Shown here: positions 1,472 to 46,900 of the stretch, piece by piece | Layout: the number at the start of each line of letters is the position of its first letter | Position numbering within the stretch: the first letter of the stretch is position 1 | DNA from: Candidatus Eiseniibacteriota bacterium | GTDB taxonomy: Bacteria > Orphanbacterota > Orphanbacteria > Orphanbacterales > Orphanbacteraceae | Assembly (NCBI GenBank): GCA_029262235.1 | Contig: JAJCZU010000004.1 | Location: 1,248,244 to 1,312,243, forward strand | Reading direction: 5' to 3' | Length of the DNA stretch: 64,000 bases | Translations under genes and position numbers: made by a program | Notes under the pieces: model-generated | What the model was told of the DNA's origin: nothing | The model's input: the letters and a program-made list of their open reading frames with translations, nothing else | Databases searched by the model: none

Positions 1472-1488
1472 CTGGCACCAACGTTGCA
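1472..1488 (+). promoter_or_regulatory. Sigma-54 (-24/-12) promoter for the metallopeptidase gene
   Basis: The sequence CTGGCAC, five bases, TTGCA matches the RpoN consensus YTGGCAC-N5-TTGCW, with exactly ten bases between the invariant GG (1474-1475) and GC (1486-1487). Transcription would begin near 1499, which places the GTG at 1501 at the RNA end and favours the ATG at 1519 as the true start. Confidence 0.75.
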
Positions 1489-1518: not shown

Positions 1519-3399
1519 ATGCGTTTATCGACAATAAAAAGTCTTCTGTGCACGAGTGTGGGGGCCGCCCTGTTTCTGATCTCTCCAACGAGCCTGATGG
1601 GCTCACCTCTCCTTCTATCGCGGCTGGCAGGTGCGGCTCCCTACACCAGTGCACAGAATGATGTCGAACGATATGGTGGTTCCGTGCGGCACCGCTTTCC
1701 GCCGGACCACCTGATCGTCGACGTCGACGACGCGCATGTAAATGATCTCGCCCGCAGCCTGGGCGATGGCTGGGTCATCGCGGATGGCCCGGTCAGCAAT
1801 CCGTCCGGCGCGGCAGAGAACGCGTGGAACCGGATGTTCGAGCGGGAGGCGGCGCTTTCGAAAGTGCACAAGACGGGCACGCCGCTGAATCAGTGCGTTC
1901 ATATGATGCCGCCGACGATCGAAGCTCCGGCGCAGGCGAAGGCGTCCTCCGGTGCGACGTACGGCGCGTACGGCGCCGGCTTCTGGGACGGAAGCGAATA
2001 CATGCTCGGCGATGTGGCCGTAGCCGTCATTCTGCCCGAGTCGAACGGCACGACCGACCCGAACCAGGAAGACTGGACGCCGGCGGAAGAAACGCACGTT
2101 ACGAATCAGGTCGTCGAGGCGATGGACTGGTGGATCGACCAGACGCACCTCGGCCCGCTTACCTTTACGTATGAATATCATTATGATGTGGACACGGACT
2201 ACGAGCCGATCACGCATCCGCAGAGCGAAGAGAACATCTGGATCGAAGATGCGCTGAAGACTCTCGGATACGACGGGCCGGATCGCTTCACGATGGCGCA
2301 GCTGTTCGTGAACGATCTGAAGGACGCGTACGATACGGACTGGGCGTTTCTGATCTTCGTCGCGGACTCGGAAGTCGATGACGACGGACTGTTCGCGAGC
2401 GGGCACTTTGCCTACGCGTATCTCGGCGGTCCGTTCATGGTGCTTACGCTCGACAACAACGGGTGGGGGCAGGCGAATTTCTCGGCCGTCTGTGCGCATG
2501 AAACGGGCCACATCTTCTACGCGCTCGACGAGTACTACAATGCCGGATCCGCATGCACCGACGAGTCGGGCTATCTGCTTTATCAGAACCAGAACAGCCA
2601 GTACGGGTCGTGCGCCGAAGATGTGCCGACCTCGATCATGCGGAGCGTGCCGCTTTCTGTCGCGACGGTCAGTTCGTCGGCGCGCGGCATGATCGGCTGG
2701 GCGGATGCGGACGGCGATTCGGTTCCGGACGTGTTCGACACGAGCCCGACCGTGCAGATCACGTACGCGGCGAAGACGTCGGCCACCGCGAATTTCCGCG
2801 TGGAGGGAACGGCACACGTTTCTCCGATCGCGAACCTCAACACGCGCGGCTACGGAAACGATATCAGCGCCAACGAGATTCAGGCCGTGCAGTTTCGCGT
2901 GGACGGAGGCGCATGGGTGAATGCCGTTCCGGATGACGGCGTGTGGGACAGCGGTTCGGAAGGCTTCTCGTTCGAACCGACCGCGCCGTCGGAAGGGCAG
3001 CACGACCTGGAGGTGCGCGGGCTGAACAACCGCAACATCCAGAGCGCCGCCTACTACGAAGACAGCTTCGACTTCCTGGGCGTCACGAGCGTTACGCTGA
3101 GCGGCGGGGACGGCGTTCCGGTCGCCCTTCGCCTGCTCGGAAACCGCCCGAACCCGTTCAATCCGAAAACGTCGATCGCGCTCCGTGTCGACGGCGCTCT
3201 CCCCGCCTCCGTTGTGGTGTACGACGCGGCGGGTCGTCTCGTGCGCACGCTCTTTGCCGGCATCCTGCCCGAAGGGGACAATGTGATCGTCTGGGACGGG
3301 GTCGACGACCGCGGGCGCCCGTCCGCGAGCGGCCGCTATCATTACAGGGTGGATGCGGGCGGCGGTTCCGCCGTCGGCTCGATGCTTCTCGTCCGCTGA
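1519..3399 (+). CDS. Secreted zinc metallopeptidase with C-terminal FlgD-like sorting domain
   Basis: 626 residues. A signal sequence (about 1-30) is followed by a long catalytic region with H-E-T-G-H at residues 327-331, continued as I-F-Y-A-L-D-E-Y. This HExxH...(L)xDEY layout resembles M64-type (IgA-protease-like) metallopeptidases, in which the second acidic group supplies the third zinc ligand. A Ca-binding-like DADGDSVPD loop follows at about 395. The last ~90 residues (RLLGNRPNPFNPKTSI... ending GSMLLVR) form a FlgD Ig-like domain of the kind used as a C-terminal sorting signal in FCB bacteria. I chose the ATG at 1519 because AAAGGA lies 9 bases upstream; an upstream GTG at 1501 coincides with the predicted transcript start. 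It is controlled by the sigma-54 promoter at 1472. The natural substrate is unknown. Confidence 0.85.
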   Translation: MRLSTIKSLLCTSVGAALFLISPTSLMGSPLLLSRLAGAAPYTSAQNDVERYGGSVRHRFPPDHLIVDVDDAHVNDLARSLGDGWVIADGPVSNPSGAAENAWNRMFEREAALSKVHKTGTPLNQCVHMMPPTIEAPAQAKASSGATYGAYGAGFWDGSEYMLGDVAVAVILPESNGTTDPNQEDWTPAEETHVTNQVVEAMDWWIDQTHLGPLTFTYEYHYDVDTDYEPITHPQSEENIWIEDALKTLGYDGPDRFTMAQLFVNDLKDAYDTDWAFLIFVADSEVDDDGLFASGHFAYAYLGGPFMVLTLDNNGWGQANFSAVCAHETGHIFYALDEYYNAGSACTDESGYLLYQNQNSQYGSCAEDVPTSIMRSVPLSVATVSSSARGMIGWADADGDSVPDVFDTSPTVQITYAAKTSATANFRVEGTAHVSPIANLNTRGYGNDISANEIQAVQFRVDGGAWVNAVPDDGVWDSGSEGFSFEPTAPSEGQHDLEVRGLNNRNIQSAAYYEDSFDFLGVTSVTLSGGDGVPVALRLLGNRPNPFNPKTSIALRVDGALPASVVVYDAAGRLVRTLFAGILPEGDNVIVWDGVDDRGRPSASGRYHYRVDAGGGSAVGSMLLVR

Positions 3400-5624: not shown

Positions 5625-6476
5625 ATGAAGTGTGAAAAATGGCATGCCCTGGCGAACGACTTCCTGATCGCCGACCGGAGAGACGAGCGCGAGCGGAACC
5701 CGGCGCGCTTCGCGGCGCCCCTCTGCGACCGCCATCGCGGCGCCGGGGGCGACGGTTTTCTCGCGATCGAGCCGTCGGGTGACCACAGCGACGCAATGGT
5801 TTCGATCTGGAACGCCGACGGGAGCCGGGCCGAGATCAGCGGGAACGGGCTGCGGTGCGCCGCCGGTTTCCTGCTGCAGCACGGGGCCGTGGACCGCTGT
5901 TCGATCCGAACACAGGCCGGAGTCTCCGCACACAGGGTGATCGAACGCGCGCCGCCCGGTTTTCGGATCGAATCGCACTTTCCCGCCCCCTCGTTCGCCT
6001 CCCGGGTGATCGGGCTCGCGGAAAGCGTGCCGGAAGGGGAGCCGTTCGAGCGCTCCTGGAGCGGCGGGGTCGTCCGCGGCACGGCCGTGTCGGTCGGGAA
6101 CCCGCATTACGTCGTGTTCGAAGGATGGACCGAAGACAACTGGCGCGCGATCGGGGCCGAGCTCGAGAGCGATCCGTTCTTCCTGCATCGCGTGAACGTC
6201 GAATTCGCCCGCGTGATCGATCGCGCCGCGCTGCAGGTCTTCGTGTTCGAACGCGGCGTCGGGGAGACGGCGTCTTCGGGCACGGGCGCGTCGGCGTCGT
6301 TCGCGGCCGCGCGTCGCGCCGGCATGGTCGACCCTGCAATCGACGTGCGCCTCGCCGGCGGCACGTTATCTTTACGGGAAGAGCCCGAGGGCTTCTCGCT
6401 CACCGGATCGTGCGAACGAATCGGCGTTTTCGAAACCGACCCCTCATGGTGGGAGCGCATCAATGACTCCGAGTAA
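5625..6476 (+). CDS. dapF: Diaminopimelate epimerase-like protein, second catalytic Cys replaced by Ser
   Basis: 283 residues, normal for DapF, which interconverts LL- and meso-diaminopimelate for lysine and peptidoglycan synthesis. The first active-site motif N-A-D-G-S...S-G-N-G-L-R-C is intact, with Cys78. The second motif reads E-R-G-V-G-E-T-A-S-S-G-T-G-A, where DapF normally has A-C-G-T-G; the catalytic Cys (Cys217 in the Haemophilus enzyme) is therefore Ser218 here. The enzyme may work with a Cys/Ser pair, act on another substrate, or be impaired. The start at 5625 lacks a Shine-Dalgarno and fits a leaderless transcript. The 3' end overlaps the FG-GAP gene by 14 bp, so the two are probably co-transcribed with recG. 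Confidence 0.85.
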   Translation: MKCEKWHALANDFLIADRRDERERNPARFAAPLCDRHRGAGGDGFLAIEPSGDHSDAMVSIWNADGSRAEISGNGLRCAAGFLLQHGAVDRCSIRTQAGVSAHRVIERAPPGFRIESHFPAPSFASRVIGLAESVPEGEPFERSWSGGVVRGTAVSVGNPHYVVFEGWTEDNWRAIGAELESDPFFLHRVNVEFARVIDRAALQVFVFERGVGETASSGTGASASFAAARRAGMVDPAIDVRLAGGTLSLREEPEGFSLTGSCERIGVFETDPSWWERINDSE

Positions 6477-8097
6477 ACGTCACCCTCATCTGTTTCCCGC
6501 CCTATTCGCGGGCGTGCTTCTGGCGGGCTCCTTCCTGCCAGGCTTCTTCCTGGCAGGCATGGTGTTTCCGTGCGCGGCCGCGGCGCAAAACGATTCGCTC
6601 ACGCCGGAACCGGCCGAGCGCCCTTCGATGAACGTGCGGCGTCATCACGACGTGCGCTTTCTCGGCGCGGATCCGTGGGACGAACTCGGCGTGCAGGCGT
6701 GCTTCGCGGATCTGAACGGCGACGGCTTCGACGAAGTGATTCTGGGCGCATGGCTCGCAGACGGCCCGCGCAACGAGCGTTCGCGGGCGGGCGAAGTGTA
6801 CATCTTCTTCGGGCGCGCTCTCGAAGACTGGGAGCGGGGGACGCTCGACCCGTCCGTCATCTATGGAGGGCGCGCCGGGGACCGCATCGGATCGTCGCTC
6901 GACTCGGGCGACTTCAACGGCGACGGCATCCCGGACCTGCTGATCGGCGCGCGCTACGCCAACGGCCCGAGCGACTCGCTTCGCGCCCGATGCGGCGAAG
7001 CGTTTCTCGTGCTCGGCGGCTCGGCCGGGGAGCGTCACGAAGTCGTGGACCTGCGCGAGAAACCGGACATTCACATTATCGGGCTGGACGAGGGCGATCG
7101 CTTCGGGCGCAGAATCCACGTGCAGGATCTCGATCGCGACGGGCGGGAGGACCTGCTGATGGCGGCGATCGGATCGGACGGCCGGTACGACGAAGACGCG
7201 GACGCCGGCGCCGTTTACGTTCTCTACGGAAGGCCGCGTGATGATTTCGAGAAGGTGATCGATCTCGGCGATCGCGAACTTCCCGTGCTGCACGGGTCGG
7301 ACGAGTCGGACGGACTCGGCGGCGCGATGGCGACCGGCGACTGGGACGGCGACGGCCAGATCGACATCGTTCTCGGGTGCGGGTTCGCGGACGGTCCGGC
7401 GAACGGGCGAACGAATGCCGGCGAGGCCTATGTGCTGTTCGGTACGGGGAAACGTTTCGAGGGGGAGACGGTGCTTACCGAAGGCGGCGTGTTCACGATT
7501 TACGGCGCGGACTCCTACGACGGCGCGGGCATCGCGGTTGCGTGCGCCGACTTCGACGGTGACGGTGTCGACGACATCGCGCTCGGCGCGAACCTCGCCG
7601 ACGGCCCGAAGAACCATCGAGACAAGTGCGGCGAGGCGTACGTGTTACTCGGAAGCCCTTCGGTCAAGAGCGACAGGATCTTCGATCTCACGTACGCTCC
7701 GGATCTCACGATCTACGGTGCCCGCGAGGGCGATCAGTTCGGCGCCATCTTGAATCTGCAGGACTGGAACGACGACGGGTTCAGCGATCTTCTCGTGGCC
7801 TCCCTGCTCAGCGACGGTCCGGGCGCGCAGCGGGAGGACGCCGGCATGCTCTACGTGATCCTCGGCGCGGCGCAGACGGACCTCGAACCGCGCGTCGATC
7901 TGGCTACGGGCTCCGGCGACCTGTTCCTGCTCGGCCCTTCGGCGCAGGACAAGATTGCGACGGCTTTCACGATGGGCCGCATGGCGAATGAAGACGTGCT
8001 CTTCGCCGCCACGATGCTCGGGGACGGGCCGCACGATGAAAAGAACGATACCGGCGAGGTGTATGTCCTTCGATGGCGCGCTCTGACAGGACAATAG
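6463..8097 (+). CDS. Secreted FG-GAP (integrin-alpha-like) beta-propeller protein
   Basis: 544 residues with an N-terminal hydrophobic signal region (about 9-42, ending C-A-A-A-A-Q). At least six Ca-binding loops of the form D-x-N-G-D-G-x-x-D follow (for example DLNGDGFDE, DFNGDGIPD, DLDRDGRED, DWDGDGQID, DFDGDGVDD, DWNDDGFSD). Each is followed by an A-x-G-P-x-N-x-R-x-x-A-G-E-x-Y-V-L-F/L-G strand. This is the FG-GAP repeat pattern of a seven-bladed propeller, suggesting an extracellular binding or structural protein. It starts inside dapF and runs 25 bp into recG, so translation is probably coupled. The ligand is unknown. Confidence 0.8.
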   Translation: MTPSKRHPHLFPALFAGVLLAGSFLPGFFLAGMVFPCAAAAQNDSLTPEPAERPSMNVRRHHDVRFLGADPWDELGVQACFADLNGDGFDEVILGAWLADGPRNERSRAGEVYIFFGRALEDWERGTLDPSVIYGGRAGDRIGSSLDSGDFNGDGIPDLLIGARYANGPSDSLRARCGEAFLVLGGSAGERHEVVDLREKPDIHIIGLDEGDRFGRRIHVQDLDRDGREDLLMAAIGSDGRYDEDADAGAVYVLYGRPRDDFEKVIDLGDRELPVLHGSDESDGLGGAMATGDWDGDGQIDIVLGCGFADGPANGRTNAGEAYVLFGTGKRFEGETVLTEGGVFTIYGADSYDGAGIAVACADFDGDGVDDIALGANLADGPKNHRDKCGEAYVLLGSPSVKSDRIFDLTYAPDLTIYGAREGDQFGAILNLQDWNDDGFSDLLVASLLSDGPGAQREDAGMLYVILGAAQTDLEPRVDLATGSGDLFLLGPSAQDKIATAFTMGRMANEDVLFAATMLGDGPHDEKNDTGEVYVLRWRALTGQ

Positions 8098-10100
8098 AAC
8101 CGGCGGCCGACGACCCGGTCGACGTACTCCCCGGAATCGGGCCCTCCCGCGCCGCGGATCTCGTGGCGCTCGGAATCGCGAACGTGGGCGATTTCCTGCA
8201 CTACTTTCCCGCGGACTATCTTTCGCCGGCACGCCGCATTCGCGTGGCGGATGCCGTGGCGGAAGAGCCCGCCGTGTTCGCGGGCGAGCTCACTTCGATC
8301 CGCCTGATCCGTCGCGGGTGGGGGCGTTCGATCGTCGAGGGCGTTCTCGACGACGGGACGGGCACGATCCGCATGAGCTGGTTTCGCGCCGGGTACCTCG
8401 CGAAGAGCCTGAAGCCCGGCATGAAACTCGTGATCAAGGGAAAGCCGACTGGCAAGCCTCTCCGCATGCAGCATCCCGCGTTCGAAACGCTCGTTCCCGC
8501 TGAGGGCGAATCCGATTTCGAACGCATTCTTCCCCGCTACCGCAGTCTCGGCGGGCTCCCGCAGAAAACGATTCGCAAGGCCATGGCGGTCGCGCTTCAC
8601 GCCATTCCCGAAACGGAGCCGCTCTCCGACCGCATTCGCCACGCGCTCGATCTTCCCGGCCGCGCGGATGCTTATCACTTCGTGCATCGTCCCGAATCCG
8701 AAGACGAGATCATTCGGGCGCGCCGGCGCTTTCTGTTCGAGGAACTCTTTCGTACGCAGTGCCGTTTCGCCGAAACGCATCGCGCGCGCATGGCGTCACG
8801 TTCGAAGAAGCGCGTGTTCGAGAAGACGGCCGTCGTCGAACAGCTCATCGCGTCGCTCCCGTTTACGCTCACGCGGGATCAGGCGCGGGTGCTCGAGCAG
8901 ATTCAGAAGGATCTGCGTTCCGGGTGCCCGATGGAGCGTCTCGTGCTCGGCGATGTCGGTTCGGGAAAGACGATCGTGGCCGCCGCGGCCATTGCGCAGG
9001 TGGCGAAGCAGGGAGGGCAGGCGGCGCTTCTCGTGCCGACCGAAATCCTCGCCCGGCAGCATGCGCGTTCGCTCGCGGAGCTGTTCGAGCCGCTCGGGCT
9101 TCCCGTGCGACTGCTCGTGAGCGACCTTCCCGCGCCCGAGAAACGCGAAGCGCTCGCGGGTCTCGCGGACGGCTCGATCGGGATCGTGGTCGGGACGCAC
9201 GCTCTGATTCAAAGCGCGGTGAAGTTCGACTCGCTCGCGCTTTGTGTGATTGACGAACAGCATCGTTTCGGCGTGCGCCAGCGCGCGTCGCTCACGGCGA
9301 AGGGGAAGAACGTGCATTTCCTGCTTCTTTCCGCCACGCCGATTCCGCGCACGCTTGCGCTCACGCTGCACGGCGATCTCGACCTCTCCGTGATTCGCAC
9401 CATGCCGCCCGGGCGCATTCCGGTCGCTACGAAGCACGTCGCGGGCGAAGCGCGCAAGAAGGCTTATCATCATATGCGCGACCGCCTGCGCGAAGGGGAA
9501 CAGGCGTTCATTCTGTTTCCGCTCGTCGAAGAGTCGGAGAAGGCGGACTGGAAGGCCGCGGTCGAAGCGGAGAAGAAACTCGCGAAGACGTTCCTGCGCG
9601 AGTTCTCACTCGGCCTCCTGCACGGAAGGCTTCCGTCGCGCGAAAGGGAGGAGACGCTGCAGCGATTCCGGACGGGCGAACTGCACGCGCTGATCTGTAC
9701 GACCGTGGTCGAGGTCGGCGTCGATCTTCCGCGTGCCACCGTGATGATTATCGAAGACGCCGATCGCTTCGGCCTCTCCCAGCTGCATCAGATCCGCGGC
9801 CGCGTGGGGCGGAGCAGGCTGGCGAGCTACTGCTACCTTTCGACCCACGGGTCCGTCGGAGGGACCGCGCGGGAACGCCTGGGCGTGCTGGAGCGGGAAA
9901 ACGACGGCTTCGCGATCGCCGAGGCCGATCTGGCCATTCGCGGGCCCGGCGACCTGCTCGGACTCGACCAGAGCGGCCACGGGCCCCTTCGCCTCGCGCT
10001 TCAGGAGTTTGACCCGCAACTGGTCGAATGGGCCCGCAAAGAGGCGTGGGAGAGCTCTCAGGCCCCCTCAGACGGAGCACGCCCGCTGCGCGCCGGATGA
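8073..10100 (+). CDS. recG: ATP-dependent DNA helicase RecG
   Basis: 675 residues, close to the usual ~690. RecG drives branch migration and reversal of stalled replication forks. The N-terminal wedge/OB region begins with a helix-hairpin-like V-L-P-G-I-G-P-S-R. Helicase motif I (G-D-V-G-S-G-K-T, ~292-299), motif II D-E-Q-H (~393-396), motif III S-A-T-P-I-P-R-T and the C-terminal motifs (VVEVGVDLPRATVM, then H-Q-I-R-G-R-V-G-R) are all in order. The gene begins inside the FG-GAP gene. That is an odd partner for a repair helicase and is probably only transcriptional coupling. Intact. Confidence 0.95.
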   Translation: MARSDRTIEPAADDPVDVLPGIGPSRAADLVALGIANVGDFLHYFPADYLSPARRIRVADAVAEEPAVFAGELTSIRLIRRGWGRSIVEGVLDDGTGTIRMSWFRAGYLAKSLKPGMKLVIKGKPTGKPLRMQHPAFETLVPAEGESDFERILPRYRSLGGLPQKTIRKAMAVALHAIPETEPLSDRIRHALDLPGRADAYHFVHRPESEDEIIRARRRFLFEELFRTQCRFAETHRARMASRSKKRVFEKTAVVEQLIASLPFTLTRDQARVLEQIQKDLRSGCPMERLVLGDVGSGKTIVAAAAIAQVAKQGGQAALLVPTEILARQHARSLAELFEPLGLPVRLLVSDLPAPEKREALAGLADGSIGIVVGTHALIQSAVKFDSLALCVIDEQHRFGVRQRASLTAKGKNVHFLLLSATPIPRTLALTLHGDLDLSVIRTMPPGRIPVATKHVAGEARKKAYHHMRDRLREGEQAFILFPLVEESEKADWKAAVEAEKKLAKTFLREFSLGLLHGRLPSREREETLQRFRTGELHALICTTVVEVGVDLPRATVMIIEDADRFGLSQLHQIRGRVGRSRLASYCYLSTHGSVGGTARERLGVLERENDGFAIAEADLAIRGPGDLLGLDQSGHGPLRLALQEFDPQLVEWARKEAWESSQAPSDGARPLRAG

Positions 10101-10254
10101 CCCGGTTCCGTATCCCCTTGTCCTGCAGAAATTTAGCCTCCCGAGAAATCCTGGAAAAGTTCTAATCACTCGTCCGCCCCCTGCCGATCCTTGGATGGAA
10201 TCGAAAAATGTTCAATTGGTGACATCCGACCCGTTTGGGAGAGGTACAGATTCG

Positions 10255-38838: not shown

Positions 38839-39282
38839 ATGCCTGCGGTCGATTTCAGTGAGATCCTGGGGCACCTGCTGCATCTCGGGATCGCGTATCT
38901 GCTGGCGCTCCCGCTCGCGTTCGATCGCGAGAAGGAAAAGACAAGCGCCGGTCTGCGTACGTTCCCGCTTGTTGCGATCGGTTCGTGCGCCTTCATGTTG
39001 ACGGGACTTTCCTTTTTCGAGGGCGAGGAGGCACGCGCGCGGCTGGCGCACGGGTTGTTGACGGGCATGGGCTTCATCGGCGGGGGAGCGATCCTGCGTC
39101 GCGACGACAGGGTCGCGGGTACGGCAACGGCTGCGAGCCTTTGGAATACGGGAGGCATCGGTATGGCGGTCGCCATGGACCGCTACGAAATCGGGATTGC
39201 GCTCGCCGTGGTCAGCTTCCTCACTCTCCGCTATGTGTCGCGCATCAAGAAGGAAGTGCCCGAAGAGAAGACGGAGACCTAG
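38839..39282 (+). CDS. MgtC/SapB-family membrane protein
   Basis: 147 residues with about four membrane helices. The conserved MgtC core is present: L-A-L-P-L-A-F-D-R-E, A-G-L-R-T-F-P-L-V-A-I-G, and G-M-G-F-I-G-G-G-A-I-L-R...V-A-G-T-A-T-A-A-S-L-W. It lacks the C-terminal ACT-like domain of MgtC proper, like many SapB relatives. MgtC proteins affect Mg2+ starvation survival and the F-type ATPase, but here the function is inferred only by family. AGGAGGG precedes the ATG. The stop overlaps that of the convergent BON gene (shared CTAG). Confidence 0.9.
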   Translation: MPAVDFSEILGHLLHLGIAYLLALPLAFDREKEKTSAGLRTFPLVAIGSCAFMLTGLSFFEGEEARARLAHGLLTGMGFIGGGAILRRDDRVAGTATAASLWNTGGIGMAVAMDRYEIGIALAVVSFLTLRYVSRIKKEVPEEKTET

Positions 39283-39926
39283 CCTCCCGTGACTTCGATT
39301 TCATTGCGGAGGTGGAGCACCCGGGATTGACGGGCGATTTCCTCGGCCGCCTCCCTGCAGGCGGAATTCGGAACACGACCCGACAAAACCACGGTGTCGT
39401 TGTTGACCGATACCTGAATCGGCAGATTCGCGAGATCGCGCCTTCGCAGGAATCTTCGTTTGATCGCGCGGGCAATTGTCTTGTCTGTCGTTTCCGCCAC
39501 GTCGTCGATCAGGATCAGATTGCGAACGGAGCGGACCCCGCGCACACGCAGCGCCACTCTTTCGGCGGTCGCCCTTTCCTGATCGCGAGAGACGTTTCCA
39601 TTCAGCGTGACTTCGCCGTTGCTGACAGAAACGGTGAGCGTCTCCTTCCGCAGATCGGCGTGCGCATCAAGCGCGGCCCGCACATAGTTCGCCACTTGCG
39701 CGTCGGGCGTGATCCGGGCCGGTTCCACTACGAGAGCGTTGACAACCCCCTGCACTCCCGGCAGCGATTGCGCGATCTCCTCGGCCGCCAGCTTGCGCGT
39801 GTAAGTCGTAACGGCGCCACGAAGGAACACGAACCCGCCGGTCGCCGAAACGCGGATCGCTTCTCCCGCGAGCTGCTCATCCTCACGAATCGCACGATGC
39901 GCCTGCTCACCCAGTTTTACATCCAT
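39279..39926 (-). CDS. Protein with three BON domains
   Basis: 215 residues with no signal peptide. It contains three BON (OsmY/nodulation) domains in tandem (~3-70, 77-145, 150-215), each with the hallmark V-x-N-G-x-V-x-L-x-G-x-V pattern (S-N-G-E-V-T-L-N-G-N-V; N-N-D-T-V-V-L-S-G-R-V). BON domains bind phospholipid surfaces and are common in osmotic-shock and envelope-stress proteins. GAGGGA lies six bases before the ATG. It is the last gene of a three-gene minus-strand unit (DUF1328, Pro-rich peptide, BON) whose promoter is the sigma-54 site at 40372-40388. Confidence 0.88.
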   Translation of the reverse strand: MDVKLGEQAHRAIREDEQLAGEAIRVSATGGFVFLRGAVTTYTRKLAAEEIAQSLPGVQGVVNALVVEPARITPDAQVANYVRAALDAHADLRKETLTVSVSNGEVTLNGNVSRDQERATAERVALRVRGVRSVRNLILIDDVAETTDKTIARAIKRRFLRRRDLANLPIQVSVNNDTVVLSGRVPNSACREAAEEIARQSRVLHLRNEIEVTGG

Positions 39927-39934
39927 GGCATCCC

Positions 39935-40132
39935 TCAGCGCTGTCGGGGGACCGGGGAATCGTGCGGCCCTTTCCGCTTTTTCGGCGGAGGCCCGGGTAT
40001 CGGCGGGTTCGGTTCACCCGGCACCGGTTTCGGCGGCTTGCGCGGCTCCCGCGGTTTCGGAGGAGCCTTGCGTGGCTTCGGCCGCTCCGGAGTTTTTGCG
40101 GTTGTTCGCATGTGGTTTCTGGTGTCTGACAT
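39935..40132 (-). CDS. Small Pro/Lys/Arg-rich protein
   Basis: 65 residues, almost entirely low complexity: more than a third Pro with many Lys/Arg in P-K-P-R-E-P-R-K-P-P-type runs. No fold or family is recognised and it is probably disordered. It is likely a real gene because GGAAGG lies eight bases before its ATG, it sits in the tight gap between DUF1328 (20 bp upstream) and BON (8 bp downstream), and no other frame here makes sense. It could be a cell-wall- or nucleic-acid-binding peptide; this is unknown. Confidence 0.5.
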   Translation of the reverse strand: MSDTRNHMRTTAKTPERPKPRKAPPKPREPRKPPKPVPGEPNPPIPGPPPKKRKGPHDSPVPRQR

Positions 40133-40151
40133 CTTGATGTCCTTCCGTTCG

Positions 40152-40322
40152 TTACGAGGAGGCGTTTCCGAGTGTACGGAATACGAACGACGCGATCAGC
40201 AGAATCATGAATACGAAGAACAGAATCTTCGCGATTCCGGCGAACGCGACGGCGAATCCGCCGAATCCGAAAACGGCCGATAGAAGTGCGAGTAGAAAGA
40301 AAGTAAGTGCCCAACCCAGCAT
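40152..40322 (-). CDS. DUF1328 (YtjA-like) small membrane protein
   Basis: 56 residues with two membrane helices. The pattern [21 protein letters not shown]...I-A-K-I-L-F-F-V-F matches the DUF1328/YtjA family, small proteins often found next to BON, CsbD and other stress genes. AAGGAG lies six bases before the ATG at 40322. It heads the DUF1328/Pro-rich/BON unit and has a near-consensus sigma-54 promoter ~40 bases upstream of its start. Its molecular role is unknown. Confidence 0.85.
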
Positions 40323-40371
40323 GACGTTTCTCCTTTGTTCGAGAATGGAATTGCTGCCTGACCGTGAGAAT

Positions 40372-40388
40372 TGCAAGGGCCGTGCCGA
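40372..40388 (-). promoter_or_regulatory. Sigma-54 promoter for the DUF1328/BON unit
   Basis: Read leftward it is TCGGCACG, four bases, TTGCA. GG (40386-40385) and GC (40374-40373) are separated by exactly ten bases, and only the first T of TGGCACG differs from consensus. RNA would start near 40361, about 39 bases before the ATG. Confidence 0.72.
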
Positions 40389-40485
40389 AAAGTACAAAAC
40401 ACCGGAACGCGCTGCGGAAACGGGCGCATCGGTGGAATCCTGCCCGGCAGACAACCTGCGGAACCGGAGGGAAGAGCCGTGATCC

Positions 40486-40520
40486 CGGTAAGAAGTGCTG
40501 ATGATCGGTAAGGAATGCCG
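40486..40520. promoter_or_regulatory. Tandem candidate enhancer sites for the NtrC-type activator
   Basis: CGGTAAGAAGTGCTG (40486-40500) and CGGTAAGGAATGCCG (40506-40520) are two copies of one 15-mer, spaced 20 bp apart (two helical turns). They resemble the perfect palindrome CGGTAAATGTTACCG at 44817-44831. They lie about 100-133 bp from the leftward promoter and 121-155 bp from the rightward one, the normal range for a sigma-54 activator. Confidence 0.55.
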
Positions 40521-40639
40521 GGGGCCAGGGGACGGCTGAGGGAGTCACGTACGGGTTCGGGAAACACGCCTGACGGGTCTACAGCTCTACCAGCTCTAAT
40601 AGTAGAGCGCAGCCGGAGCGAGAGGACGCCAGGAGTGGA

Positions 40640-40655
40640 CGGCACGATTCCTGCA
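40640..40655 (+). promoter_or_regulatory. Sigma-54-like promoter for the two-helix membrane protein
   Basis: CGGCACG, four bases, CTGCA, with GG (40641-40642) and GC (40653-40654) ten bases apart. Two positions differ from consensus. RNA would start near 40667, about 70 bases before the ATG at 40736. Confidence 0.6.
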
Positions 40656-40735
40656 CCTGCTTACTTGCGGCGATCGAAGACTCGTTCGATCGACGGAGTC
40701 AGATCAACAGAAACCGTATCGTAAGGAGAACAATC

Positions 40736-40957
40736 ATGCGGACCCCTGTAATCGCCGGCATCGCGCTGCTCGTCATTGGCGTCGTCGGATTTACGCTCGG
40801 CGGCGTTTCGATTCCGACCGACAAAGACACGGCCGAAATCGGGCCGATGGAAATCTCGGTCACCCAGAAAGAAACGATTTCGCTTTCGCCGGTCTTGTCA
40901 GGCGTTTCGATTCTCGCCGGCGCGATTCTCGTGGGCGCGGGCTTCCGCAAATCGTAA
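40736..40957 (+). CDS. Small two-helix membrane protein
   Basis: 73 residues: two membrane helices (about 5-24 and 52-70) joined by a short polar loop (I-G-P-M-E-I-S-V-T-Q-K-E-T-I). This matches a widespread set of small uncharacterised bacterial membrane proteins whose loop contains an I-G-P...K-x-T-I pattern. AAGGAG lies eight bases before the ATG. Transcription is probably from the sigma-54-like site at 40640. Its convergent neighbour is the hybrid kinase of the adjacent two-component cassette, only 47 bp away. Confidence 0.75.
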   Translation: MRTPVIAGIALLVIGVVGFTLGGVSIPTDKDTAEIGPMEISVTQKETISLSPVLSGVSILAGAILVGAGFRKS

Positions 40958-41004
40958 CGGCAGCGCGATGGAAGGCGCGAATGAGCCGGTGGACGTCCGC
41001 GACG

Positions 41005-42696
41005 TTACTCCCGGACGGCGGCACGCAGCTTCGCGACGTCAACCGGCTTCGGAAAGATCGCGTCCGCACCCGGCAGTGAGGAGACGTGGTCGATTGCGGA
41101 CGATCCGCTCAGAACGAAGATCCGGCACGCACTGACGGAAGGCGACGATCGCAGTCTTTCCATCACTTCGTATCCCGAGATGTCGGGGAGATCGAGGTCG
41201 CAGAGAATGATTTCCGGCTGAAACGATTCCCGGAGCGACAGCGCCGCATTCCCGTCGGGCGCGAGTTCGACGAGGTGCCCGTCGAGTTCGAGAATCTTCT
41301 TCAAGCCGCTCGCGGTCGCTTCATGATCCTCGACGATCAGGATACGCCGCACGACATCGGTTCGCTTTCGATCGACTTTCGCCTTTGTGCGGTCGATCGT
41401 ATGATCCGGGCGTTCGTCGGTTCGCATCAGGAAGAAGCGGAATTCGGCCCCCGTGCCGAGGCCGTCACTGTAGACTTCAAAGCGGCCACCATGCCTCTTC
41501 ACGATCGCTTCCGAGATCGCGAGACCGAGGCCGAGACCCTGCTCTGATTTTCGCGCAGGAACCACTCCCTGGCGAAACGGCTGGAACAGTGACGCGACCT
41601 CTTCCGGGCGGATCCCCATTCCCGTGTCTCTGACGAAAATCGCCAGTTCGGTCGGGTCCTGCGCGCGGTCGATCCCGACCGAGATTCGTCCGCCTTCGTC
41701 CGTGAACTTCGCGGCGTTGCGAATCAGATTACTGAGCACCTGCCTGATGCGCGTCGGATCCGCGCGCGTGTAGAAATCTTCATCGGTCGATTCGATCACC
41801 ATCTCGAGACCCTTCTCCTCGACGGACCAGCGAAGGTCTTCCGCGATCGAGACAATCAGATCCCTGGCGCTTACGACTTCCGGCTCCATCGTGAGAGTGT
41901 CGCTGCCGGCCGCGGACAGGTCGACAAGGTCATTGACGATCCGGGTCAGGTCGGTGAGCTGCCGTGACATGGCTTCTTCGACTTCACGAAGCCAAGCCGG
42001 AAGCGTGCCGTCCATGCGGAGCTGCTCGACGTGCAGTGTGAGCGCGCCGAGCCCGTTTCGAAACTCGTGGCTCAAGACCCGAAGAAAGAGCTCTTTCGTT
42101 GCATTCGTTTCTTCGAGGTCGCGGTTCAGTTCGAGCAGCTGCAGGTTCCACGACTGCAGGCGTTCATGCGTGAGCAGCAGATCCTGATTCTGCAGGATGA
42201 TTTCGTGCGTAGGCGACGAGGGAAGTTCGACGCGGAGGTGCCGCCTCATCGCCGCGATGGCTGACGGGGTCAGATTCGGCCCCTGTGGCGGGAGCGGCTC
42301 CGTGATCGTGGCAATCGTTCCGCTGGAAGACGATTCGATCGCGAAGCCTCCCGATAGATTCGAAACGCCGCGCACGCCGAAGCCCGACCGCGAAGGATGG
42401 ATCTCCGCCTCGACGAGACTCGCGACGTCCAGGATGCCGGGGCCGCTGTCGCGCACGCGGATCCGGAGTTCCGTCGGCGACTCTGGCGGCGCGAGGCCGA
42501 AATCGATCGAGGCCTCTTTCGCGTGATGCTGCGCGTTCCATGCCAGTTCGGAAACGGCCGTCGCGATGCGAATCTGGTGGAGGTGTTCGAAGCCGAGCAG
42601 CCCCGTAATCTGGCGCGCGCGCTGGCGCGCGATGATGACATCGTCTTCTGAGTCGACGACGACATGGATCAGGGGAGTGCTGTCACGAGCGGTCAT
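41005..42696 (-). CDS. Hybrid histidine kinase with N-terminal RsbT-like domain and C-terminal receiver
   Basis: 563 residues, cytoplasmic, no membrane segment. Residues ~8-140 form an RsbT/RsbW-type ATPase domain (I-A-R-Q-R-A-R...I-A-T-A-V-S-E-L-A-W-N-A...R-D-S-G-P-G-I). A coiled coil (~150-210) links it to a HisKA domain with the phospho-His in V-L-S-H-E-F-R-N (~225). A full HATPase follows (N-L-I-R-N-A-A; D-T-G-M-G-I; G-L-G-L-G-L-A-I), then a receiver domain (~440-563; phospho-Asp in I-I-L-C-D-L-D-L-P-D, Lys in F-P-K-P). The fusion joins a partner-switching kinase module to a hybrid sensor. It overlaps the NtrC-type regulator gene by ATGA, so it is third in the cassette. Confidence 0.88.
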   Translation of the reverse strand: MTARDSTPLIHVVVDSEDDVIIARQRARQITGLLGFEHLHQIRIATAVSELAWNAQHHAKEASIDFGLAPPESPTELRIRVRDSGPGILDVASLVEAEIHPSRSGFGVRGVSNLSGGFAIESSSSGTIATITEPLPPQGPNLTPSAIAAMRRHLRVELPSSPTHEIILQNQDLLLTHERLQSWNLQLLELNRDLEETNATKELFLRVLSHEFRNGLGALTLHVEQLRMDGTLPAWLREVEEAMSRQLTDLTRIVNDLVDLSAAGSDTLTMEPEVVSARDLIVSIAEDLRWSVEEKGLEMVIESTDEDFYTRADPTRIRQVLSNLIRNAAKFTDEGGRISVGIDRAQDPTELAIFVRDTGMGIRPEEVASLFQPFRQGVVPARKSEQGLGLGLAISEAIVKRHGGRFEVYSDGLGTGAEFRFFLMRTDERPDHTIDRTKAKVDRKRTDVVRRILIVEDHEATASGLKKILELDGHLVELAPDGNAALSLRESFQPEIILCDLDLPDISGYEVMERLRSSPSVSACRIFVLSGSSAIDHVSSLPGADAIFPKPVDVAKLRAAVRE

Positions 42697-44087
42697 GGCG
42701 CGCTCGATTCGTATTTCTGCAGTTTGTTGTAAAGCGTTTTCGGGCTGATGCCGAGCATGCGCGCCGCTTCCGTGCGGTTGCCGTCGCACGATGCGAGAGT
42801 GGCGAGAATCAGTGAGCGCTCCATGTCGGCGATGGTGGCGCCCGGCGCGATCGCGGGTTCTGATGACGATGGCATGTCGGCCGCAGACGGAGCCGCAGAC
42901 GGAGCCGCAGACGCGGAGGGCAATCCGGCATCGCCTTCGATCGGAACGTGGGCTTCCGTGATCGTGTCGTCAGCCAGGATGCAGGCGCGCTGGACGATGT
43001 TCTTCAGTTCGCGTACGTTTCCGGGAAACGCGTGTTGTTCGAGTTTTCGAATCGCCGCCTCCGCAAACTTCTTTTTCTGTCCTGTCTCGGCGTTCAGCAC
43101 GTTCAGAAAATGTTCGGCGATCGCATGCAGATCGTCGCCGCGTTCGCGCAGGGGGGGGAGTGCGATCGGGAATACGTTGAGCCGGTAATAGAGGTCGGCT
43201 CTGAATTTTTCGTCGGCGACGGCCAGCGCCAGGTCGCGGTTCGTCGCGGAAACGATCCGGACATCCACCGTGACCGGCTCGCTCCCCCCGACGCGCGTGA
43301 TCTGCCCGGTTTCGAGCACGCGCAGCAGTTTGACCTGCAGGTCGAACGGCATTTCCGTGATCTCGTCGAGAAACAGCGTTCCCTTGTCCGCGCGCTCGAA
43401 GACGCCCGCGTGGTCCGCGCTCGCGCCCGTGAAGCTCCCCTTCCTGTGCCCGAATAGTTCGCTTTCGATCAGTGTCGGGGGAATGGCGCCGCAGTTGATC
43501 GCGACGAAACCGGCGCCGGCGCGCTTGCTGAGCTGGTGCACGGTTTGCGCGGCCAGTTCCTTGCCCGTTCCGCTCTCGCCGAAGACGAGAACGGCAGCGT
43601 CCGTCGCGGCGACGCGTTCGATCATGTCGTATACGGCCTGCATCGGCGGCGACGATCCGATCATCGGACCGAACCGGCCGAGGTTCCGCAGTTCGGTGCG
43701 CAGGCTCTTGACTTCGTTCTGCAGTTCGCGCGTGCGGCGCACTCCCGCCAGCAGCGTTCGCAGCCGGGCCGCATCGATCGGCTTCGTGAGGTAGTCGGTC
43801 GCTCCGGCGCGCAGCGCTTCGATGACACTGTCGACCGTAGCCTGCCCCGTGATCAGAACGATCTCGGACGAAGCGGCCGTTTCTTCCGTCAGCAGATCGG
43901 TACCCTGACCGTCCGGCAGGGAGAGATCCGTCAGGATCACGTCAGGTACCGCGGTCTCGAGCGCCGTCCGCGCTTCCGCGAGATTCTCACAAGTGGTTAC
44001 GGTGAAGTTTTCGCGCTCGACGAGTCTGGCGAGACCTTCCCGCGACGCGCGGTCGTCCTCGACGATCAGAGCGGTAAGGTTGCTCAC
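42693..44087 (-). CDS. NtrC-family sigma-54-dependent response regulator
   Basis: 464 residues. The receiver (1-120) has phospho-Asp in I-L-T-D-L-S-L-P-D and the Lys in T-K-P. The AAA+ domain (~145-370) has Walker A G-E-S-G-T-G-K-E, Walker B G-T-L-F-L-D-E-I, and the sigma-54 contact loop written G-S-F-T-G-A instead of the usual G-A-F-T-G-A. A Fis-type helix-turn-helix ends the protein (L-A-S-C-D-G-N-R-T-E-A-A-R-M-L-G-I-S-P-K-T-L-Y-N-K-L). It should bind enhancer DNA and open sigma-54 promoters when phosphorylated. Sigma-54 promoters next to the cassette (44918, 40640, 40372) are its likely targets. It overlaps both neighbouring genes by ATGA. Confidence 0.95.
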   Translation of the reverse strand: MSNLTALIVEDDRASREGLARLVERENFTVTTCENLAEARTALETAVPDVILTDLSLPDGQGTDLLTEETAASSEIVLITGQATVDSVIEALRAGATDYLTKPIDAARLRTLLAGVRRTRELQNEVKSLRTELRNLGRFGPMIGSSPPMQAVYDMIERVAATDAAVLVFGESGTGKELAAQTVHQLSKRAGAGFVAINCGAIPPTLIESELFGHRKGSFTGASADHAGVFERADKGTLFLDEITEMPFDLQVKLLRVLETGQITRVGGSEPVTVDVRIVSATNRDLALAVADEKFRADLYYRLNVFPIALPPLRERGDDLHAIAEHFLNVLNAETGQKKKFAEAAIRKLEQHAFPGNVRELKNIVQRACILADDTITEAHVPIEGDAGLPSASAAPSAAPSAADMPSSSEPAIAPGATIADMERSLILATLASCDGNRTEAARMLGISPKTLYNKLQKYESSAP

Positions 44088-44785
44088 GCGACTTCTCCTT
44101 TCGTCAGTACGATCACGATCCGCCGCTCAGAGTCACGGCTCTCGTGCCTGACATCCCAGCCGCTTGCCGCGAACGAAGCGGCGACGGGCCCGGTCTCGAG
44201 GGGGGCGCCCTCCCGGCTGTCGCCTTCGAGGCTGTCGCCCGCCCGGGTGTCGTCCGTCACTTGCCATGCGCATGTCAATGTGCAGCGGCCGGGTTCGTCC
44301 TTCCCGGCAACGGTGATCCCGGTGCCCGTGCCCGCACTTTCTATGATGCCGAACAGGATGTGGAGCAGCGGAATTGTCGGCGAACCCGCACCATCCCGCG
44401 CCGTCAACGGGCCGGTGATCGGATCGCCCGTGATCGCGAGCGGCGTTCCCCGTTTTCGCGCGAAGATTGCGGCGAGGCCGAGCGCGGCGTCCCACTCTTC
44501 CGCGAACCCCCCGCGCCCCTGTTCGCGCGCCCTTTCGTCCCGGGCGGCCCCGGCAACGCGTTCCATACTCTCGAGGGCGGACGTTACGGCGGCGATTGCG
44601 GTCCGGATTTCCCTGGCGCCGTTTTCGATCTCGCGCGCGGCCGGCGTGCCCGGCTCGACCGTCGCCTGGATCAGTTCCAGATGGATTGCGGCCGTGTTAA
44701 GCGATCCGCGCACGTCGTGCGCCCATGACGGAGCGACGCGGGCCCAGATCCGCCCCAGGAGCGCTTCCTTCTGCTTCGGATTCAT
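44084..44785 (-). CDS. Histidine-kinase-like protein with degenerate ATP-binding domain
   Basis: 233 residues, cytoplasmic. A DHp-type helix has a good H-box (S-W-A-H-D-V-R-G-S-L-N-T-A, His ~22), but I cannot find N, G1 or G2 boxes in the C-terminal half. That half keeps beta strands (T-L-T-C-A-W-Q-V; R-R-I-V-I-V-L) with an acidic insert. It may act as a His-phosphotransfer protein or a docking scaffold between the hybrid kinase and the NtrC regulator rather than as a kinase. It is first in the cassette, and its stop overlaps the regulator start (ATGA). The palindrome at 44815-44833 lies 30 bp upstream of its ATG. Confidence 0.65.
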   Translation of the reverse strand: MNPKQKEALLGRIWARVAPSWAHDVRGSLNTAAIHLELIQATVEPGTPAAREIENGAREIRTAIAAVTSALESMERVAGAARDERAREQGRGGFAEEWDAALGLAAIFARKRGTPLAITGDPITGPLTARDGAGSPTIPLLHILFGIIESAGTGTGITVAGKDEPGRCTLTCAWQVTDDTRAGDSLEGDSREGAPLETGPVAASFAASGWDVRHESRDSERRIVIVLTKGEVA

Positions 44786-44814
44786 GGCCGATTCCCCCCG
44801 GCATGGTGAGAGCC

Positions 44815-44833
44815 TCCGGTAAATGTTACCGGA
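44815..44833. promoter_or_regulatory. 19-bp palindrome, candidate activator site (UAS)
   Basis: TCCGGTAAATGTTACCGGA has 8-bp perfect arms around ATG. It lies 86 bp upstream of the rightward sigma-54 -24 box (44919) and 30 bp upstream of the leftward cassette start, so it could activate one and autoregulate the other. The half-site CGGTAA recurs at 40486 and 40506. Confidence 0.6.
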
Positions 44834-44917
44834 ACATCGCGGGAACCGCCAGCCCCCATGTCGGGTGATGATCGACTAACCAGGTACAGGAAGGGGCGTT
44901 AGCTCGCCGCGCCGTCG

Positions 44918-44934
44918 CTGGCACGCGCCTTGCA
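44918..44934 (+). promoter_or_regulatory. Consensus sigma-54 promoter for the SYLF gene
   Basis: CTGGCACG, four bases, TTGCA: a full match to YTGGCACGN4TTGCW, with ten bases between GG (44920-44921) and GC (44932-44933). RNA would start near 44945, about 50 bases before the ATG at 44996. Confidence 0.82.
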
Positions 44935-44995
44935 ATTTACAGACGGTGTCCGGGGAGGTCACCCGATGAATTCACCAGCGAAAAGGAGTTTACAA

Positions 44996-45733
44996 ATGAA
45001 ACGTTACCTCACGACAGCAGCCGGTCTGCTGATGATTGCAAGCCTTACTTCGGTCGCACCCGCGATGGCCGATTCCGAAACGAAGGCCGAGAAGAAGGCT
45101 GTGAAAGAAATGAGCGAGGACGCGGAACGCGCGATGAAGGCCGGTACCGTTCTCGATGAAGTCATGGCTCAGGAAGACAACGGGATTCCGGACGATCTTC
45201 TGGAGCGCGCGACGGGCATCGCGGTCATTCCGCACGTCGTAAAGGGCGCGATGGGGATCGGCGGGCGCTACGGCAAGGGCCTGATCGTGACTCGTGGCGA
45301 GAACGGAATCTGGCACGCTCCGTCGTACGTCCATGTGGGCGGCGCAAGCTGGGGACTTCAGTTCGGCGTGGAAGCGACCGACCTGATTCTCGTGTTCACC
45401 GAAGTTGATGGTGTGAAGGCACTGATGGAAGACAAGCTCGAACTCGGCGGCAGCGCCGCCGTGGCAGCCGGGCCGGTCGGACGTCATGCCGAGGTCGGTA
45501 CGAATCTCACGATCGACTCCGGGATCTATTCGTATTCGCGAAGCAAGGGTCTGTTTGCCGGCGTCGCGATCGAGGGCGCTGTAGTGACCATCGACGACGA
45601 TGCGAACAACCGCGTTTACGGCAAGGATAAAACTTCCGAACAGATCATGGAAAGCCATGCGTACCCGGCTCCGGTGAAACCGTTCATGGACGCCGTGAAG
45701 CGCCACGCTCCCGCGATCAAAATCCGAAGCTGA
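44996..45733 (+). CDS. Secreted SYLF-domain (Ysc84-like) lipid-binding protein
   Basis: 245 residues. A signal peptide (KRYLTTAAGLLMIASLTSVAPAMA) is followed by a helical linker and the SYLF domain (~55-235): I-P-D-D-L-L-E-R-A-T-G-I-A-V-I-P, G-G-R-Y-G-K-G-L-I-V, and S-Y-S-R-S-K-G-L-F-A-G-V-A-I-E-G. SYLF domains bind phosphoinositide-type or other acidic lipids, and bacterial forms are secreted envelope proteins of unclear role. I chose the ATG at 44996 because AAAGGAG lies upstream and the signal peptide starts there. It is transcribed alone, from the sigma-54 promoter at 44918 to the strong terminator at 45774. Confidence 0.88.
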   Translation: MKRYLTTAAGLLMIASLTSVAPAMADSETKAEKKAVKEMSEDAERAMKAGTVLDEVMAQEDNGIPDDLLERATGIAVIPHVVKGAMGIGGRYGKGLIVTRGENGIWHAPSYVHVGGASWGLQFGVEATDLILVFTEVDGVKALMEDKLELGGSAAVAAGPVGRHAEVGTNLTIDSGIYSYSRSKGLFAGVAIEGAVVTIDDDANNRVYGKDKTSEQIMESHAYPAPVKPFMDAVKRHAPAIKIRS

Positions 45734-45773
45734 TCGCGTAGTCGCGACGCTTGCGATCTGGGAGCACTCTCCC

Positions 45774-45805
45774 GCCCGGGCTCTTCGGAGCCCGGGCTTC
45801 TTTTT
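45774..45805 (+). terminator. Rho-independent terminator
   Basis: A perfect 10-bp stem (45774-45783 with 45788-45797) closed by a TTCG tetraloop, then TTCTTTTT. It ends the SYLF transcript. Confidence 0.93.
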
Positions 45806-45835: not shown

Positions 45836-46900
45836 TCAGTGGGAGTGCCCGGCCTGCGCCTGCGCGTGATGCCCGTTCTCGTGCGCCGGCTCATGCGCAT
45901 GAGCATGGCCGTGCCCGTGCGTATGGTCGGTCGCGCCGTGCGCATGCACCGCGGCGGGGAACACGGCCGCCCAGCGCGCGTCGATCGCGTCGGCACGGCG
46001 CTCGTAGTTACGCGCCGATCGTTCGTCTCCCGCCAGTTTCGACAGAGCCGCCAGGCGACGTTCCAGTTCGGGGCGTTCCCGCCCGCTCGTCGCCTCGCGC
46101 AGCAACGCAATCGCCTCGTGTTGTTCCCCGCGCGCCGCCAGAACTTCCGCCCGTTCGACGTCCGTGATCCACCAGTTCGGAAACGCGCGTTCCGCCGCCT
46201 CACAGAGTGCGAGCGCGGAATCCGTGTCCCCGCGCATGCGGGCATTCCTCGCGCGTTGCAGCAGGAGCCAGGCGGTCGGGTACGTGCGCCCGCCGTGATA
46301 GGCGAGGGACGCTTCCCGGTAGAGACGTTCGGCCTCGTCCCATCGCTCCGTGCGGGTCATGAGCATGGCAAGGCGTGCGACGCTCTTCATGTCCTTTCGA
46401 AGAAGGATCGACCGGCGATAAAGCTCTTCGGCAAGTACGAAGTCGCCCGCCTGCATGGCCACGTCGCCGCGAAGGCCCGCGATCGCCGCGCGTTCCCGCG
46501 TGTTCAGGAGCAGTTTCGTTTCGAAGGCCGCGAGATCGGCTTCGACTTCGTCGAACCGATGCATGGTGTAATGAAGCGCCGCGCGTGTCAGAAACGGACC
46601 CGCGCCCGCCGGCGCCAGCTCGAATGCCCTCACGAGGAGGGACTCCGCCGACGCGTAGTCGGCGAAGCCTCCCGTGAGTCGCGCCCGCTCCTCAAAAGCA
46701 ACCGATGCTTTCTCGTGATCCAGCGAGGAGCGAGGCGCAGTCTGAAGACGCTCTTCGATCGCAGCAATTTCGGCGTCGAGACGGGATACTTCGGTCTCAT
46801 ACCTCGGGAGCGAGGATACGCTCAAAGCGAAACTCGCTGTATCCGCCACGACAATCGATCCTGCCCCCGCGATCGCCCCTATAATTAAAAGCGTCTTCAT
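45836..46900 (-). CDS. Exported TPR protein with His-rich tail
   Basis: 354 residues. A signal peptide or N-terminal anchor (about 1-25) and a short coiled coil (E-T-E-V-S-R-L-D-A-E-I-A-A-I-E-E-R-L) precede five to six TPR-like units. The last ~39 residues contain 13 His in H-x-H runs with few other side chains, a likely Zn/Ni/Cu-binding or metal-buffering tail. AAGGAG lies eight bases before the ATG. It follows the two DUF4331 genes in the same direction with a 22 bp gap, so the three probably form one unit. The metal and the partner are not known. Confidence 0.8.
   Translation of the reverse strand: MKTLLIIGAIAGAGSIVVADTASFALSVSSLPRYETEVSRLDAEIAAIEERLQTAPRSSLDHEKASVAFEERARLTGGFADYASAESLLVRAFELAPAGAGPFLTRAALHYTMHRFDEVEADLAAFETKLLLNTRERAAIAGLRGDVAMQAGDFVLAEELYRRSILLRKDMKSVARLAMLMTRTERWDEAERLYREASLAYHGGRTYPTAWLLLQRARNARMRGDTDSALALCEAAERAFPNWWITDVERAEVLAARGEQHEAIALLREATSGRERPELERRLAALSKLAGDERSARNYERRADAIDARWAAVFPAAVHAHGATDHTHGHGHAHAHEPAHENGHHAQAQAGHSH

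Follow-up and report, generated by a model that had tools for sequence, protein, structure and literature searches.

Introduction

The closest described parallels to the system reported here couple envelope stress to sigma-54. ZraPSR of E. coli and Salmonella uses an NtrC-type regulator, sigma-54 promoters and a small envelope target encoded divergently beside the regulator, while in the Psp system sigma-54 and the AAA+ activator PspF serve envelope-stress genes both adjacent to the activator gene and remote from it. Control of the bacterial exterior by sigma-54 is a published general theme (PMC3162934), and some activators of the D. vulgaris sigma-54 regulome have been assigned to envelope or general stress (PMC4641369); the former paper does not mention DUF1328 or OsmY, and the latter does not mention BON, OsmY, SYLF or CsbD. 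In this study, we analyzed a 64-kb stretch of the genome of a Candidatus Eiseniibacteriota bacterium (the window) in which an NtrC-type activator, a hybrid kinase and an ATPase-less kinase-like protein, P0007, are encoded among genes for DUF1328, Pro-rich, triple-BON, two-helix membrane and SYLF proteins. Judging from its sequence, this locus probably specifies a phosphorelay-controlled sigma-54 regulon for envelope or general stress.

ZraSR and Psp are functional parallels of the locus, and membership of either is ruled out by family scores: the window activator reaches 308.3 bits against a ZraR cut-off of 760 and 287.6 against a PspF cut-off of 443.55. It also differs from NtrC proper (400.3 bits vs the NCBIfam equivalog cut-off of 558.6). 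Unlike ZraPSR, the locus genes include neither a ZraP-like periplasmic zinc-binding target nor a membrane sensor kinase, and the system has other target families and an extra hybrid kinase. PspF lacks a REC domain, whereas the window activator has one, and there is no PspA among the locus genes.

Two further groups of systems resemble the signalling part. Spo0B, ChpT and PhyT are, like P0007, degenerate histidine kinases that retain the DHp His and have lost the ATP site. Spo0B and PhyT work in relays that respond to starvation or stress (PMC5898713, PMC3433190); PhyT, which controls a general stress response, is considered an evolved degenerate kinase (PMC5898713). However, P0007 has no detectable sequence similarity to these proteins (Pfam HPTransfase or similar, PDB sequence search), and the window system has a sigma-54 activator as its output instead of EcfG, CtrA or Spo0A. 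The sigma-B/stressosome pathway shares with the system an RsbT-like ATPase domain in the hybrid kinase, an RsbRD_N domain in a kinase beside a relative of the activator, and the CsbD, DUF948 and YtxH families among the targets; these three families are sigma-B genes in Bacillus. The difference is that the window system uses sigma-54 and a phosphorelay rather than partner switching, with the RsbT-like domain fused to a histidine kinase. A preliminary description of this DNA had noted no described system with this exact make-up, and we likewise found none in the open-access literature (most subscription papers lying outside this scope), where the combinations DUF1328 with RpoN, DUF1328 with BON, and BON or CsbD with RpoN gave no relevant matches.

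The signalling cassette and its putative phosphotransferase

The open reading frames, their translations and a Pfam scan placed all eight genes of the locus where they had been reported. Three of them form a minus-strand signalling cassette and are probably translated together, because they overlap by 4 bp at both junctions. P0007 (44084..44785, 233 amino acids) is followed by the activator (42693..44087, 464 amino acids), which combines REC (84.6 bits), Sigma54_activat (238.2 bits) and HTH_8 (62.3 bits) domains in one protein; its AAA+ domain carries the sigma-54 contact loop GSFTGA, of the GAFTGA type as in nearly all of its clade, and its helix-turn-helix is of the Fis type (LGISPKTLYNKL). 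The third gene encodes the hybrid kinase (41005..42696, 563 amino acids), in which Pfam recognizes RsbT-like HATPase_c_2, HisKA, HATPase_c and REC domains.

P0007 gave no Pfam match, HATPase included, and a PDB sequence search was also empty. Its residues 1–45 align with the DHp helix of the sensor kinases that belong to the orthologues of the activator (AHDVRGSLNTAAIHLELIQ vs AHDLKAPLNAMVLNLELLK), and the G boxes (ATP-binding motifs) are lost in the alignment. The predicted fold comprises a DHp helical hairpin and a CA-like domain (model residues 91–232 match histidine kinase CA folds) and resembles the cores of CpxA, ZraS and RetS, the ZraS kinase core being the top Foldseek match. His23, located in the motif HDVRGSLN, Arg26 and Asn30 are invariant among P0007, its counterpart in the sister species, the cognate kinases and the proteins of Nevskia-type loci. 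In the latter loci, the activator is accompanied by a protein that lacks the ATPase, resembles HisKA weakly and carries the motif HELR[GN]P[LM]NA; hybrid kinase-REC proteins lie near the two in three cases.

Because the His is kept, the ATP site is gone and an ATPase-less protein together with a hybrid kinase-REC recurs with the activator in Nevskia-type genomes, alignment and model indicate that P0007 is most likely a phosphotransferase like Spo0B, ChpT or PhyT rather than a dead kinase. A relay is favored over a dead kinase because a hybrid kinase-REC, an ATPase-less DHp protein and a response regulator are the components of the Spo0B/ChpT/PhyT layout. Thus, the two-component cassette with a degenerate kinase of the preliminary description is better read as a phosphorelay.

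The same regulon could also work without a relay if the hybrid kinase phosphorylated the activator directly and P0007 acted as a brake, either a phosphatase or a sink. Degenerate kinases can oppose signalling, as PhyP/PhyT was first proposed to do as a phosphatase (PMC5898713), and four loci (L056, L058, L059 and L063) pair the activator with an ordinary histidine kinase, or with a histidine kinase and a single REC, without an ATPase-less protein. In contrast, the terminal REC of the hybrid kinase would otherwise need a phosphotransferase, and the recurrence of ATPase-less DHp proteins with hybrid kinases at Nevskia-type loci speaks for a relay. Phosphatase activity is further disfavored by the Gly that occupies the phosphatase Thr/Asn position (His +4) in P0007 of both species, although the cognate kinases elsewhere also lack Thr/Asn. 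We therefore consider direct phosphorylation unlikely, while it is the strongest competitor of the phosphorelay.

As for the input to the phosphorelay, the RsbT-like HATPase_c_2 domain of the hybrid kinase scores 36.5 bits against a cut-off of 27.4, an RsbT-like kinase lies beside the activator relative at L065, and the RsbRD_N kinase lies beside that at L062. These domains point to a stressosome-type input, which we regard as a lead. Six STAS domains, the domain type of the RsbT partners RsbR and RsbS, are encoded elsewhere in the genome and none within the window coordinates, and the viral contigs searched contained no relatives of the hybrid kinase. Since no recognized membrane sensor domain occurs in either kinase, a cytoplasmic inducing signal is plausible. 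At L065, a B12-binding protein and an RsbT-like histidine kinase (5874-6866 and 8812-10110) flank a paralogue of the activator, suggesting light or cobalamin input there.

Promoters, operators and an unlinked operon

Three sigma-54 promoters face the putative target genes. One, TGGCACGCGCCTTGCA (44919..44934, plus strand), precedes the gene for the SYLF (Ysc84) protein (44996..45733, plus strand; PF04366, 124.5 bits), which has an N-terminal signal peptide; another, CGGCACGATTCCTGCA (40640..40655, plus strand), precedes that for the two-helix membrane protein (40736..40957, plus strand, 73 amino acids). The third, CGGCACGGCCCTTGCA (40372..40387, minus strand), faces the genes for the small membrane protein DUF1328 (40152..40322, 56 amino acids; PF07043, 36.7 bits, cut-off 27), the Pro-rich peptide (39935..40132, 65 amino acids; no family match in the Pfam scan) and the triple-BON protein (39279..39926, 215 amino acids; Pfam BON, 144.8 bits in three stretches). 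These three minus-strand genes are separated by only 19 and 8 bp, as expected of one operon. Only four sigma-54 sites in the window score at least 15, and the locus holds three of them; the chance of three or more of the four landing in 6.5 kb is about 0.004. Elsewhere in the window, a strong sigma-54-like site, TGGCACCAACGTTGCA (1473-1488, plus strand), lies about 70 bp before a gene for a 613-amino-acid protein (1558-3399), and no operator palindrome of this regulon scored around it.

The perfect operator palindrome (44816..44834, palindrome 44817-44831; core CGGTAAATGTTACCG with TCCGG...CCGGA flanks) has its center at about −121 relative to SYLF, some 90 bp before the −24 element of that gene, and also stands about 30 bp ahead of the start of P0007. 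On the other side of the cassette, an imperfect operator-like site, CGGTAAGGAATGCCG (40506..40520), is situated between the divergent promoters with its center at about −152/−153 and is the second-best palindrome of the window; another, CGGTAAGAAGTGCTG (40486..40500), is centered at about −132 for DUF1328 and −173 for the two-helix gene. The two best CGGTAAnnnTTACCG-type palindromes of the window, which score 12 and 10 out of 12, values reached once each within it, are found about 90–120 bp upstream of sigma-54 promoters, and the promoters and CGGTAA-type motif copies at enhancer distance that had been described earlier are indeed present.

When the whole 4.47-Mb genome was searched by pattern, the perfect palindrome was the sole exact match. 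The motif alone was not enriched (5 matches with up to one mismatch vs 7 for a reversed control), whereas its coupling to a sigma-54 promoter was, with 2 cases observed and about 0.0017 expected. The unusual feature of the motif is its position relative to sigma-54 promoters, not its frequency; a naive reading of the frequency criterion in the preliminary description would count against it.

We also searched seven genomes of the family for a half-operator combined with a sigma-54 promoter. In the genome of the window, which has rpoN (PF04552, 211.6 bits), the matches were SYLF, DUF1328 and one further location. There, on another contig, an operon for a PRC-barrel protein, a DUF948-like protein and YtxH is preceded by the operator CCGGTAATCCTTACTGA and the sigma-54 promoter CGGCACGCTTCCTGCA, which are separated by 94 bp. 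At L104, the orthologous operon of the sister species is arranged in the same way, and an independent prediction of the regulon is thereby borne out. Contrary to the earlier supposition, the regulon is therefore not confined to 6.5 kb and not self-contained. One coding chance match was left in each of the two species; on inspection, the operator-promoter pairs at G000 C2 817487 (L106), whose half-site lies within a sugar-isomerase-like gene, and at G001 C506 (L105) were rejected as chance. Neither the activator (at E ≤ 1e-120) nor SYLF occurs in the five other family members, which had no gene with such an operator and promoter, two matches being at chance level. Within this family the cassette is limited to a single genus, which points to gain or repeated loss. 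Separately, TGGCACACGCTTTGCT (L106 1075-1090, G000 C2) lies between sugar-isomerase-like and acyltransferase-like genes about 3 kb before rpoN and is a possible sigma-54 input to lipopolysaccharide genes.

Conservation of the locus and of the activator

The sister species (Gemmatimonadetes bacterium SS_bin_27; L002, same genus as G001) retains the locus with identities of 86% (activator), 78% (hybrid kinase), 84% (SYLF), 95% (DUF1328), 88% (two-helix protein) and 56% (P0007), up to the point where its contig stops before the BON gene. GG-N10-GC is kept at all three sigma-54 sites, which read TGGCACGCGGTTTGCA for SYLF, CGGCACGCCCCTTGCA for the DUF1328 operon and CGGTACGGATCCTGCA for the two-helix gene. 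The 21 bases TCCGGTAAATGTTACCGGAAC around the SYLF-side palindrome are identical in intergenic DNA; on the DUF1328 side, CCGGCATTCCTTACCG is identical and TCAGCA-TTCTTACCGG is kept.

Orthologues of the activator (47–60% identity) occur in two orders, that of the 'Deltaproteobacteria' CTSoil_040 and that of a Nevskia metagenome-assembled genome. Together with the window activator, they form one clade of 30 rows from three phyla (support 99/98), from which other NtrC-type proteins are excluded; the recognition helix LG[IV]S[PLV]KTLYN[KR]L is common to them. DUF1328, BON, CsbD, PRC, YtxH, DUF883 or holin-like genes lie near the activator in 16 of 20 other genomes, compared with 0 of 15 control loci surrounding other NtrC-type genes. 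With near-identical lineages removed, 14 of 18 genomes remain (p ~6e-6), the p-values being indicative only, as the controls came from other genomes and were in some cases shorter, and as the relatives do not count as independent. A further 185 kb of mixed controls contained no target families except the true PRC/YtxH target. Likewise, sigma-54 scores of at least 15 precede 10 of 31 target operons and 7 of 141 others (p=7e-5), a statistic resting on related, non-independent genomes.

Individual loci display the same arrangement. At L055, CCGGTAATCGTTACCGG and TGGCCCGCGCCTTGCT lie upstream of DUF1328-holin-YtxH-AI-2E genes, and a second operator-promoter pair precedes CsbD-DUF3309-BON, adjoining the activator. 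At L060, DUF1328-BON follows TGGCACCGCGCTTGCA beside the activator, and at L133 and L135 DUF1328/BON genes are divergent from the activator with sigma-54 sites in between. Sensor partners vary among the loci, while the activator and the targets persist. Thus, the core of the preliminary description, a sigma-54/NtrC regulon that comprises small envelope proteins and has an operator of its own, is upheld in the sister species, where synteny, promoters and motif are kept upstream of orthologous genes, and in outline in two other phyla.

Other observations concern the same clade. One genome (G065; L056, L057 and L065) has three paralogues of the activator with different sensor partners, and Nevskia-order genomes (L126 4300-5349; also L128-L132) have a second, REC-less sigma-54 activator of the clade, divergent from a DUF883/holin-like operon. 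At L061 (5162-5178), the kinase-activator operon of a CTSoil_040 paralogue has CGGTAATCGTTACAG about 21 bp upstream, which suggests autoregulation.

Several findings weigh against a phosphorelay-controlled regulon of this kind. Besides the frequency of the motif and the relatedness of the genomes behind the promoter statistics, the orthologue loci L059, L061-L065 and L136 have no target families nearby. In the CTSoil_040-order genomes, most palindromes lie within coding regions, and so the operator there has drifted or the palindromes are chance; as a universal operator of that order the palindrome was rejected. In addition, the P0007 model, built from two sequences, is of moderate confidence (pLDDT 70.1, the predicted local distance difference test) and does not favor Spo0B or ChpT in particular, neither of which is among the Foldseek or VIA rows shown.

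The palindrome might instead be the site of another regulator, with the NtrC-type activator merely a neighbor. Its position upstream of P0007 would suit a repressor of the cassette, and a first look at the genome gave 67 candidates for such an activator. This explanation is improbable, since the operators stand at enhancer distance from sigma-54 promoters in three intergenic regions on two contigs in both species, the recognition helix of the activator is conserved, and at L135, in another phylum, a similar palindrome (CGTGTAAAATTTACCGG) lies between the activator orthologue and the sigma-54 DUF1328/BON operon. Finally, a mere coincidence of small genes with promoter-like sequences in GC-rich DNA, with no regulon at all, would agree with a palindrome no commoner than its reversed control but is barely credible given its joint occurrence with promoters, the conservation in the sister species and the crowding of the best sigma-54 sites of 64 kb into one region.

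Proposed mechanism and significance

We propose that the hybrid kinase would sense an internal signal in the cytoplasm, perhaps via its RsbT-like domain, autophosphorylate and transfer the phosphate to its own REC. His23 of P0007 would then accept the phosphate and pass it to the REC of the activator. We infer that the phosphorylated activator binds CCGGTAAnnnTTACCGG-type palindromes, which lie about 120–170 bp upstream of the start points, and that Esigma54 is thereby opened at four promoters, namely those of SYLF, DUF1328-Pro-rich-BON, the two-helix protein and the unlinked PRC-DUF948-YtxH operon.

The physiological role would be a response to envelope or general stress. Loading of the envelope with lipid-binding proteins is uncertain because the triple-BON protein has no signal peptide evident on inspection of its N-terminus. 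The BON protein at L060, unlike that of the window, has a signal peptide, and the triple-BON protein may be cytoplasmic. Next to SYLF and transcribed towards it is a gene for a TPR protein (45836-46900) with a long His-rich C-terminal tail (HAHGATDHTHGHGHAHAHE...) that is possibly metal-binding. Scans of the 64-kb window for tRNA and Rfam families gave no matches.

On a wider scale, the evidence is about evenly balanced for a phylum-spanning, hitherto unrecognized envelope or general-stress response in which a hybrid kinase, an ATPase-less DHp phosphotransferase and a dedicated NtrC-type activator would act in series, with RsbT/RsbRD_N inputs, and sigma-54, in place of sigma-B, sigma-S or EcfG, would drive DUF1328, BON, SYLF, CsbD, PRC, YtxH and DUF883-type genes from CGGTAA/TTACCG operators. 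DUF1328, BON, CsbD, SYLF, PRC-barrel and YtxH proteins occur widely as stress proteins, and outside model organisms little is understood of how they are regulated. With its recognizable operator, a dedicated sigma-54 activator would offer a testable cross-phylum regulon and a promoter-level handle on these proteins, and would add an ATPase-less phosphotransferase relay that feeds a sigma-54 activator.

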